Source of the DNA: a virus
DNA: 27,471 bases
IMG/VR virus record: IMGVR_UViG_3300025771_000147
Location: 1 to 27,471 of that record
Direction: 5' to 3' (one strand)
Shown here: one piece after another, positions 16,737-27,426 of the stretch
Position numbering within the stretch: position 1 is the first letter of the stretch
How the letters are laid out: each line of letters opens with the position of its first letter
The notes under the pieces: generated by a model
What the model was told of the DNA's origin: nothing
Seen by the model: the letters and a program-made list of their open reading frames with translations, nothing else
Databases searched by the model: none
Program-made: the position numbers and the translations under genes

Positions 16737-17759
<1,023 letters not shown>

Positions 17760-17760
17760 A

Positions 17761-18219
17761 CTAGCTCTCCAAACGATAATTTGCACCCACCATACTATAT
17801 TTGCGCTTTTTCATCAAACTATCAAATGCAGCAGGGTTTATATCAGTGCTATAGCCTATCCTAATTTCCGATGCGCCCCTTTGTTTTGCCCAATGCTCAA
17901 AGCAATCTAAAAGACGCAATCCAATCCGTGTTCCTCTTTTTTCACGGACAACAAACCACGCAATGTCATTTGCAACAAGTTCTTCGCTAAAGTAATACTC
18001 TGAAATGTATCCAGCATACAATCCTAAAGGCCTACCATTATCAACAGCAATAAACACAACTTTATTTTCATCGTTTAAATACATCCCAAATGTATCAAGC
18101 AACTTATCTTTGCTAAATTTTAATTTTGAATACGAGCTTTCTTGATGCATCAATAACCCAAGCTGATGCACTAACCCAAAATCTCCCGAACCAGCTTGCC
18201 AATATTCAACCATCTTCAC
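17761..18219 (-). CDS. GNAT-family N-acetyltransferase, 152 aa
   Basis: The protein has the full GNAT layout: strand pair VVFIAVDNGRPLGLYAGYIS (54-73), then IAWFVVREKRGTRIGLRLLD (86-105), containing motif A as R95-G-T-R-I-G100 for the acetyl-CoA pyrophosphate, an EHWAKQRGASEIRIGYS segment and a C-terminal MKKRKYSMVGANYRL strand. Unlike the other GNAT in the window, its motif A is well kept, so it may be active. Its substrate is unknown. It sits between the large terminase (four-base overlap, ATGA) and the repeat-rich protein, a place where many marine podoviruses carry such a gene. It could modify a virion protein or a host target. Confidence 0.88.
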   Translation of the reverse strand: MKMVEYWQAGSGDFGLVHQLGLLMHQESSYSKLKFSKDKLLDTFGMYLNDENKVVFIAVDNGRPLGLYAGYISEYYFSEELVANDIAWFVVREKRGTRIGLRLLDCFEHWAKQRGASEIRIGYSTDINPAAFDSLMKKRKYSMVGANYRLES

Positions 18220-20499: not shown

Positions 20500-20526
20500 A
20501 AAAAAGGCCCAGCGCAATGCTGGGCC
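20500..20526 (-). terminator. Rho-independent terminator between replication and packaging blocks
   Basis: On the minus strand a perfect 8-bp stem (GGCCCAGC / GCTGGGCC, 20506-20526) with a 5-base loop is followed by six T. It lies after the unknown 188-aa gene and 36 bases before terS, separating early from late genes. The rest of the gap 20465-20594 shows no clear sigma-70 promoter for terS. Confidence 0.9.
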
Positions 20527-21161: not shown

Positions 21162-21187
21162 CTGCTTCACCTCTTTTCCTACCAAAT

Positions 21188-21354
21188 CTTCCACACCTTC
21201 CACACCTTGCCACCACACCCCACTTTACCCAAACCACCACCCCACCACACCTTGCATATGTATATGCAGGTGGTGTGGAAGGGTATTTCGTGGCTTTTCT
21301 TCCACACCTCCACACTTCATCCACACTTCGTAAAAACAAGGTGTGGAAGTGTGG
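21188..21354. repeat. Array of ten CCACAC / GTGTGG units, candidate replication origin
   Basis: Seven CCACAC units (starts 21191, 21200, 21213, 21245, 21302, 21310, 21321) and three in opposite orientation (21273, 21341, 21349) lie in 165 non-coding bases, often as CTTCCACACC. One copy reads TCATCCACA, one base from a DnaA box. A perfect GCATAT-GT-ATATGC palindrome (21254-21267) sits in the middle. The array lies between the PP-loop gene and the unknown 188-aa gene, next to the primase-helicase block. Iterated, oriented short units with a central A+T palindrome are typical of origins. Origin function is inference. Confidence 0.7.
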
Positions 21355-21367
21355 CTAGCAAGTTTTA

Positions 21368-25411: not shown

Positions 25412-26150
25412 AAAGCTCCTCCCTAATTGCTTCTCCACCGTTCCAGTAGAATGAGTTGGGGTTGACCGGGATGACATCTCTGATGTCTGCCGCGCTGCCA
25501 GCCCGCAGAAACTTTTCCATGCGGCTGATCTGCTTCTTTGCTTTTGCGAGCAGCTCAGTCGGATCGCCGTCTTCTAGCATGTTTGTTTTCTTTGGCGTGA
25601 CGTATAGGAACTTGACGATCTGATTGCCTCTGGCCTTCTGATAGATCGCGCGTTGGAGCTGATGCTCTGCCGACATTGTGCTTGGCATACGGCCTGTTGT
25701 TTTGAGATCAACAACCAGACCATGCTCGGGAAACACCAAGTCAAGGTATCCAATGACAGGGATTTCGTAATCATCTGTCTTGGCTGTGATACTGATTTTC
25801 TGTTGACCCTCTTCTGGAAACTCTGGCTGCCCGAGATGCTCAAGCTCTCCGATTGCCAGCTCCATGCAGGGTTCAATCATGCTGCGCTCTTTGCTTGTCT
25901 TCTCATCGCCAATCGGAAAGAACTTATCAAACTTTTCTAGCGCCTGATCCAGTGCGCCTGCCTTGTGCAGCTTGCCTGTCAGCGCTGCCACAACTGCGTC
26001 CTCTGTGCAGATCCCACGCATTGCTGCGGCTGACATTGGCGTGCGCTTGCCGAACAGGTAGGAGGCAACCCAAACATCTGGCGCGTTTGTCCATAGGTTT
26101 ATGGATGAGGCAGACAGGTGCTTGATGTTGTGCTTTTCAAATCCGTTCAT
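25401..26150 (-). CDS. PD-(D/E)XK exonuclease (Cas4/RecB-like), 249 aa
   Basis: The nuclease core is clear: HLSASSINLWTNAPDVWVAS at the start (11-30), the RGICTEDAV helix (E50), GYLDLVF (D137), VVDLKTT (D148 and K150) and AEHQLQRAIYQKA with Q164 and Y170 downstream. That order, with a conserved Glu, Asp, D-x-K and QxxxY-type helix, marks the RecB/Cas4-like exonuclease group. I see no four-Cys iron-sulfur site, so it differs from true Cas4. It probably resects DNA for recombination-linked replication or degrades host DNA. Its start overlaps the resolvase stop by four bases (ATGA), and it is followed by the acidic protein and SSB, which fits an end-processing module. Confidence 0.9.
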   Translation of the reverse strand: MNGFEKHNIKHLSASSINLWTNAPDVWVASYLFGKRTPMSAAAMRGICTEDAVVAALTGKLHKAGALDQALEKFDKFFPIGDEKTSKERSMIEPCMELAIGELEHLGQPEFPEEGQQKISITAKTDDYEIPVIGYLDLVFPEHGLVVDLKTTGRMPSTMSAEHQLQRAIYQKARGNQIVKFLYVTPKKTNMLEDGDPTELLAKAKKQISRMEKFLRAGSAADIRDVIPVNPNSFYWNGGEAIREELYGI

Positions 26151-26614
26151 AGCGCAAGCTTTCCATACAGTGCAAGCAGCGCAGCTTCTGCGCGTCCATC
26201 GTCTTTGGCGCGGCTGAAGAGACTTGCCTGCTTAGGAAACCTCTGGCTTGCCAGACTGCGTGATACGCCCTTATCACGGCTCAAGCCCAAGAAGGACTTC
26301 CACTTAGCTGGCGTGACGAGGTGCATTGGCACTTGGTGCGATGCGATTGCCATCTGCGTTGCGCCGTATGATTGCCCGAAACGAAACATGCTTGACACGC
26401 CTTGCCCGCGCATGGCTGCCACTTGCTCGATGACGGCAATGTGCTGCTCATCGTCTTCGGGTTTTAAAATTTTGTGTAGCTCGTATAGGTTTAGTTCTGT
26501 TTTACCTTTTGCATTTTTGTACACTGGCATGTCGAACACTTGAATGTGATTTTCTTTAGGCCAGTAGAATGCAACAGCCCCGGTGAAGCCCGGATCTACC
26601 CCAATGTAAATCAT
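26147..26614 (-). CDS. RuvC-like Holliday-junction resolvase, 155 aa
   Basis: It has the RNase H fold signature of RuvC: IGVDPGFTGAVAF at residues 4-16 (D7), then AVIEQVAAMRGQGVSSMFRF at 60-79 (E63), the LVTPAKWKSFLGL segment (99-111) and AKDDGRAEAALLALYG at 136-151 (D138/D139 and E143), the acidic C-terminal pair. It should cut four-way junctions or branched DNA made during replication and before packaging. Length fits phage RuvC relatives. It overlaps the small upstream gene and the exonuclease downstream by four bases each, so all three are likely made together. Confidence 0.92.
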   Translation of the reverse strand: MIYIGVDPGFTGAVAFYWPKENHIQVFDMPVYKNAKGKTELNLYELHKILKPEDDEQHIAVIEQVAAMRGQGVSSMFRFGQSYGATQMAIASHQVPMHLVTPAKWKSFLGLSRDKGVSRSLASQRFPKQASLFSRAKDDGRAEAALLALYGKLAL

Positions 26615-26796
26615 GCTGCGTGCGCCTTTATGTAGATGCCGTTCGCTTTAAGATAAAAGGCCAACGCCTCTTCGGTTAGATCGCGCAATGACTGCGTGTT
26701 GTTTTGCATTTGGTTGCGCTGCTTTTGCAATGCCTTCATGGCCTCAGCCAGCTCGGGCTTTATGCGATGGTTCCACTGTGCTTTGTTCTCTTTCAT
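26611..26796 (-). CDS. Small ribbon-helix-helix-like protein, possible regulator, 61 aa
   Basis: This is the first gene of the minus-strand operon. The basic N-terminus (MKENKAQWNHRIKPELAEAM), a Gln/Asn linker, and the LRDLTEEALAFYLKANGIYI helix resemble the second half of small ribbon-helix-helix proteins such as Arc, in which a strand precedes LTEEALxxYL. The expected N-terminal strand is not clear, so the match is weak. As the product of the gene just after the four-operator region, it could repress its own promoter and the divergent one. That is inference. It overlaps the resolvase by four bases. Other readings (a small coiled-coil protein) are possible. Confidence 0.5.
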   Translation of the reverse strand: MKENKAQWNHRIKPELAEAMKALQKQRNQMQNNTQSLRDLTEEALAFYLKANGIYIKAHAA

Positions 26797-26826
26797 TTTA
26801 ACCCCAAGGTTGCTAGTATGTTTTAA

Positions 26827-26855
26827 GATATAATGCTAGCAACTTTTTATTGCAA
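26827..26855 (-). promoter_or_regulatory. Sigma-70-like promoter for the minus-strand replication operon
   Basis: TTGCAA (-35) and TATATC (-10), 17 bases apart on the minus strand, with the second palindrome next to the -10 and the first just downstream. Both boxes are partial matches. Confidence 0.5.
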
Positions 26856-26881
26856 TAGATAATTTTTTGCTAGCAGATGTA

Positions 26882-26910
26882 TTGACAATTTGCTAGCAAG
26901 TCCTTACATA
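26882..26910 (+). promoter_or_regulatory. Sigma-70-like promoter for the plus-strand genes
   Basis: TTGACA (perfect -35) and TACATA (weak -10), 17 bases apart, with the perfect TTGCTAGCAA palindrome in the spacer. Start would fall near 26917, about 23 bases before the ATG at 26940. Confidence 0.55.
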
Positions 26911-26939
26911 AGATTTGTAAAGCAAGAAAGGAAATGGAA

Positions 26940-27119
26940 ATGGAAACTTTTAAAGCATATGTCGCGGCGATCATTGCTACTATTGTTGCAGTCTTTGGCC
27001 CCTTCGTATTCACATTTGCAGTAGCATCGTTTGCTCCAATCTTGGGCGGCCCTGCATTGGTCATCGGCTTGGTTGCCATCCCAGCGTTGAGCTTCATGGC
27101 ATTAGATTGGACGGCGTAA
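26940..27119 (+). CDS. Small two-helix membrane protein, 59 aa
   Basis: It is the first plus-strand gene. The ATG at 26940 is preferred because AAGGA ends seven bases before it; the in-frame ATG at 26934 is only one base from that site. The protein is almost all hydrophobic: AYVAAIIATIVAVFGPFVFT then VASFAPILGG and ALVIGLVAIPALSFMALDW, giving two likely membrane helices with a Gly/Pro turn between. It has no signal-peptidase site. Small two-helix proteins like this can be holins, superinfection-exclusion proteins or early host-membrane modifiers. Its operator-controlled divergent promoter fits an early or lysogeny-like role more than a late holin, but this cannot be settled from the sequence. 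Confidence 0.7.
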   Translation: METFKAYVAAIIATIVAVFGPFVFTFAVASFAPILGGPALVIGLVAIPALSFMALDWTA

Positions 27120-27210
27120 TGTAACCCAGTAACCTAGTCGATTTTATCAAAGCGCTACACAACGTTGATGTTGTGTGGCGACCCGAAGCACCAGAAGAGG
27201 AACCACCGTT

Positions 27211-27426
27211 TTGAAAACAGCAGACGAATTGAAAAGAGACATCGCATCCGAGGAGCGGTTCATCACCAAGCAACGCGAGAAGATGGATCGCATGCGCAGC
27301 CTAGAAGTAGGCGTTAGATCAGGTGACATCAGCACTGATCTCGCAATGTTTCAAATATCAATCAACAACGCGGAAGCCCGCATATCAATAATGAAAAAAG
27401 AATTGGAGAACATGAAGCATGGTTAA
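27211..27426 (+). CDS. Small coiled-coil protein of unknown function, 71 aa
   Basis: The proposed start is TTG at 27211, nine bases after AAGAGGA and overlapping a stop codon in another frame (TTTTGA). An in-frame GTG at 27175 would add 12 residues (MATRSTRRGTTV) but has no clear site. The protein is charged and helical throughout (ADELKRDIASEERFITKQRE, DLAMFQISINNAEARISIMK), with a heptad-like pattern suggesting a coiled-coil dimer. I recognise no family. It is the second gene of the plus-strand unit and couples to a third gene starting at 27419. It may be a small regulator or an adaptor; this is open. Confidence 0.6.
   Translation: MKTADELKRDIASEERFITKQREKMDRMRSLEVGVRSGDISTDLAMFQISINNAEARISIMKKELENMKHG

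Follow-up and report, generated by a model that had tools for sequence, protein, structure and literature searches.

A conserved array of four palindromes at predicted divergent early promoters of an uncultured phage and its probable 61-aa repressor

The divergent region and its neighbours

The window analysed here is the whole of a viral contig, 27,471 bases in length, whose leftward genes encode T7-like structural proteins, a terminase, a primase-helicase, a RuvC-like resolvase and other replication proteins. Its closest isolates are the HTVC010P-type pelagiphages (proposed Ubiqueviridae), judged by large terminase (58%) and portal (~61%); these isolates are described as depending on host RNA polymerase, with none of their own, and as possessing a hypervariable region (PMC10504331). 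A search for a T7-type RNA polymerase returned no match, but its control was equally silent, so that nothing follows from this result. Unlike these isolates, the window phage carries a gene for a 61-aa protein next to an array of palindromes (Table 1): no homologue of the protein was found among the isolates, isolated phages searched with the array DNA gave no credible match, and the single divergent gap inspected in HTVC010P contained no sites of the array type. The phages carrying the array are an uncultured family and apparently lytic. Elsewhere in the window, a 349-aa protein encoded between the portal and terminase genes (16737-17786, minus strand) contains long PEPEPE/APAPAP repeats and belongs to no family of known function.

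Table 1. Features of the divergent region and its surroundings (window coordinates).
Feature	Position	Strand	Remarks
61-aa gene, proposed autorepressor (probable ribbon-helix-helix)	26611..26796	-	invariant QWNHRI strand segment; adjoins every four-site array
RuvC-like Holliday junction resolvase	26147..26614	-	phrog_1770; second gene of leftward operon
Intrinsic-terminator-like hairpin with T run	20506..20526	-	consensus match only; between leftward early genes and small terminase gene
61-aa hydrophobic protein	26934..27119	+	first rightward gene; unrelated genes in the same slot elsewhere
Second rightward small gene	27175..27426	+	KTADELKRDIASEERF family; occupies first position in some relatives
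Operator O1	26810..26819	.	TTGCTAGTAT, 2 mismatches; at ~+1 to +10 of predicted leftward transcript; kept in relatives
Operator O2	26833..26842	.	ATGCTAGCAA, 1 mismatch; within leftward promoter spacer; kept in relatives
Operator O3	26867..26876	.	TTGCTAGCAG, 1 mismatch; immediately upstream of rightward -35 box; kept in relatives
Operator O4	26890..26899	.	TTGCTAGCAA, 0 mismatches; within rightward promoter spacer
Leftward sigma-70-like promoter (predicted)	26827..26855	-	-35 TTGCAA (26855-26850), 17-bp spacer, -10 TATATC (26832-26827)
Rightward sigma-70-like promoter (predicted)	26882..26910	+	-35 TTGACA (26882-26887), 17-bp spacer, -10 TACATA (26905-26910)

The original prediction had described four palindromes with 0 to 2 mismatches at steps of 23, 34 and 23 bp, one of them inside the spacer of each of two divergent promoter candidates. 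The four TTGCTAGCAA-type sites were found exactly at the positions reported, O2 occupying the leftward spacer and O4 the rightward one, and no other cluster of copies exists in the window; O1 is the most degenerate. Single copies with at most two mismatches are not enriched (16 found across the window versus 25 expected), and the unusual feature is the clustering rather than the copy number. When the window was dinucleotide-shuffled 500 times, four sites fell within 90 bp twice; when the gap alone was shuffled 20,000 times, four or more sites likewise arose twice. Since the motif was picked post hoc, its conservation in relatives constitutes the stronger evidence. A protein bound within a promoter spacer should block RNA polymerase, so that repression is the natural reading of this geometry; O3 might in addition have a role in activation, since its centre precedes the predicted rightward start by ~45 bp.

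On the leftward side, the hairpin with its T run is proposed to be the end of the early operon which begins with the putative repressor gene, and its place ahead of the small terminase gene suggests that the late genes would need read-through or a promoter of their own. On the rightward side, the first gene falls into 21 unrelated small-protein families among 37 distinct proteins, all behind the same promoter and often preceded by a shared AAGAAAGGAAATGG leader; to judge from these sequences, the gene in this slot has been swapped many times. In longer relatives the rightward arm extends over ~2-3 kb of small genes before leftward genes are met. Comparison of ten slot proteins with Pfam gave no clear assignment and no named anti-defence match.

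A further near copy of the palindrome at 21353-21362 had been pointed out at the edge of a CCACAC array. It is present, but a role as an additional operator was not retained: it is kept only in close relatives (L010, L217/L038) and is missing from the more diverged L085, L133 and L050, where the CCACAC block persists. The CCACAC/GTGTGG repeat array itself (21180-21360) lies between a PAPS-reductase-like gene and the next gene, is conserved in diverged relatives, and could be a replication origin or a regulatory block.

Conservation of the array and its variants

Relatives were fetched from viral contigs by means of the 61-aa protein, independently of the DNA motif, which yielded 59 loci. Four sites at steps of 23/33-34/23 bp were present in 51 of them, the distance between array and gene being almost the same throughout, while five others had four CTAG palindromes at steps of 22/34/13, 12/44/12 or 12/46/12 and the remaining three were fusion variants whose sole remaining site lies in the rightward promoter spacer. 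The steps thus shift from 23 to 12 or 13 bp and from 34 to 44-46 bp, and most of these changes amount to roughly one helical turn, which would fit a requirement for the sites to share one face of the DNA. In the reverse direction, all 37 four-site arrays recovered by a DNA pattern scan adjoin a 61-aa gene, and a scan for 12-bp pairs found 12/44-46/12 four-site arrays at gene-bearing loci only. A second array was sought in full-length relatives and none was found.

The operators have diverged less than their surroundings. Between the groups with 33-bp and 34-bp central steps, identity is 88.6% in the operators, 55.7% in the spacers and 37.8% in the right flank, and the CTAG core is invariant in 152/152 sites from 38 distinct arrays, a collection gathered in part by a scan that required the core TA in one site; the pattern scan required TGCTAG. 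As core bases were preset in these scans, the set of loci derived from the protein is the less biased one. The leftward hexamers conform to TTGNNN and TATNNN in all 38 distinct arrays, and the rightward -35 box begins with TTG in 33 of the 38. All the relatives are related metagenomic contigs of uncultured phages, some nearly identical, and the counts therefore overstate independence. Taken together, these comparisons indicate that the array is under selection. Relatives with the same genes retain both the palindromes and their spacing, the loss of which had been named beforehand as grounds for abandoning the prediction, and this conservation gives good support to a divergent promoter pair that has paired operator sites and is under repressor control.

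The fusion variants (L014, 4590-5180; L015; L194) encode a longer protein with the 61-aa-type domain at its C-terminus, preceded by a T5orf172-type (GIY-YIG-like) domain and by an N-terminal segment that matches a repressor family weakly and looks like a second repressor domain. Their gap contains a single CTAG site within the spacer of a rightward TTGACA-17-TAATGC promoter, degenerate in L194; O4 is retained even here, and the other sites are replaced by a new repeat, TGTGCAAGATGTGCAA, in two copies 55 bp apart. The new repeat accompanies the new N-terminal segment, i.e. sites and phage protein change together, and by its sequence the gap looks like a natural operator swap.

Pairs of TTGCTAGCAA were also encountered in other contigs (L108, L051, L021, L097, L072, L054), whose neighbouring genes are unrelated, and these were set aside. 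One of them, L108 (200-360), carries four TTGCTAGCA-type palindromes at steps of 44/23/44 bp directly upstream of a gene whose small product resembles an RHH antitoxin, possibly a convergent use of the motif.

The 61-aa protein

Alignment of 20 members of the family showed that K5, Q7-I12, E15, A17, M20, Q24, R38, T41-E43 and G53 are common to all. An AlphaFold model built from this alignment (mean pLDDT 76.6) predicts a coil at residues 1-13, corresponding to a flexible N-terminus, and helices at 14-30 and 37-51; the helical part of the ribbon-helix-helix (RHH) fold is present in it and the strand is absent, as may happen for a monomer. This model with two helices supersedes a first one, obtained from 15 sequences, in which residues 2-30 formed a single helix. 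Foldseek searches with the model gave no RHH protein and no PDB match. A single-sequence search of the PDB returned coiled-coil noise, and the matches of the family in bacterial genomes were fragments of an unrelated protein reading as glutamyl-tRNA reductase.

At the sequence level, no RHH family passed the cut-off against the 61-aa protein, the only match being PF12651 (E 0.21). Profile comparison with the Arc family (hhalign) was weak, with P of 0.012-0.025 and 9 of 300 column shuffles scoring as well; in this weak local match the QWNHR segment aligns on QFNLR of Arc with Q, N and R in register. The gene does lie beside palindromic operators in its own predicted promoter, as expected of an RHH repressor. 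Membership of the RHH superfamily is therefore only suggestive by sequence and predicted fold and, given the weak Arc-profile match, the strandless model and the silence of Foldseek, we refer to the protein as a probable RHH protein and not as a member.

Proposed early-gene repression: mechanism, alternatives and meaning

Our favoured reading, to which we give a probability of roughly 0.7, is that the 61-aa protein, probably in the form of an RHH dimer, recognises the palindromes and thereby represses the two early promoters, its own among them. According to this scheme, host RNA polymerase would fire both divergent promoters after infection, the leftward transcript providing the repressor together with replication and recombination genes and the rightward one delivering a burst of exchangeable small proteins for host takeover or counter-defence. 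The repressor would act as a small dimer whose QWNHRI strand enters the major groove of the TTGCTAGCAA site; as it accumulates, dimers on O2 and O4 inside the spacers would shut down both promoters, with help from O1, which covers the leftward start, and from O3, which directly precedes the rightward -35 box. Cooperative binding is plausible because the changes in step approximate one helical turn. However, small dimers on adjacent sites would be separated by a gap at a step of 23 bp. In addition, RelB is an RHH antitoxin whose dimers occupy palindromic half-sites of 12 bp on a single face of the DNA, and repression by it was not restored when half-sites were moved apart by one turn (PMC2812701); direct dimer-dimer cooperativity at 23 bp is therefore not assured.

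The palindromes might instead be read by another phage regulator, an HTH protein of the rightward arm repressing or activating both promoters, and several relatives do encode weakly HTH-like proteins there. These proteins vary under the same arrays, from 88 aa in G002 to 130-141 aa in G011 and G003 and to a 65-aa form devoid of the HTH part in G014, and the array's only constant neighbour is the 61-aa gene. That the right-hand proteins vary or are cut short where the array is kept points to the 61-aa protein, and an HTH regulator of this kind appears unlikely. The same association bears on a host transcription factor, which would couple early transcription of the phage to the state of its host. 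The promoters are sigma-70-like, no phage RNA polymerase gene is found among the annotated genes, and isolates of the HTVC010P type are described as dependent on the host enzyme (PMC10504331), all of which would suit such a factor. Yet in the loci examined the array never occurs without the adjoining phage gene, full-length relatives have no array elsewhere, and in the fusion variants the sites change along with the phage protein, which makes a host factor very unlikely.

The original prediction had likened the locus to a temperate-phage switch. Divergent promoters sharing repeated operators are indeed found in the immunity regions of temperate phages, and a true lysis/lysogeny switch could be at work if a gene for integration or plasmid maintenance had escaped recognition. 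In place of two antagonistic repressors, the locus has one constant leftward regulator, whose gene heads an operon of replication genes, and a first rightward gene that belongs to any one of the 21 families; a second repressor is not conserved there. Scanning bacterial genomes yielded the spurious reductase-like matches only and no prophage. Neither a tyrosine integrase (PF00589) nor a large serine recombinase (PF07508) was found in 12 records, which may be incomplete and several of which are ~34 kb long, so the analogy with a temperate switch is not supported; we regard lysogeny control as highly improbable, and autorepression of early genes fits better.

Autorepression of this type has relatives among known systems. 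As in the immI region of P22 (Arc, Mnt; RHH family), a small phage repressor would act at divergent promoters, and the annotated Arc operator overlaps both of them; on the other hand, P22 is a temperate phage in which the ant operon is under the control of Arc, and its two operators carry annotations as single sites of 21-23 bp, as opposed to the four 10-bp palindromes here. The profile similarity is also weak. The 12-bp palindrome step of relatives L192 and L195 recalls the RelB operator, but the window has 23-bp steps, half-sites set apart fail in RelB, and no toxin gene was recognised alongside. The constant, presumably repressed promoter ahead of exchangeable small genes also resembles, by analogy, anti-CRISPR and early anti-defence loci repressed by aca products (Aca2, Aca8), which bring together a set of variable small genes, a strong early promoter and an autorepressor that is likewise small (PMC11065993). 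For the last of these elements, the correspondence consists in the genetic association of the 61-aa gene with the array. In contrast to aca loci, the putative repressor gene is divergent from the variable genes instead of co-transcribed with them, the 61-aa protein is not a recognised Aca, and no known anti-defence protein was identified.

More tentatively, and at odds somewhat short of even, the conserved four-operator promoter may serve as a plug-in slot which imposes a fixed early burst followed by shut-off on small host-takeover or anti-defence genes exchanged within it, the repressor representing a new and highly diverged RHH subfamily that recognises palindromes one or two helical turns apart. 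The timing of transcription in HTVC010P-related phages is poorly known, and the array offers a concrete candidate for a regulator-operator pair. Should the rightward slot prove to serve anti-defence or takeover, the operator would provide a search key for new proteins among viruses related to a very abundant type, and the array could act as bait for new counter-defence proteins from uncultured phages.
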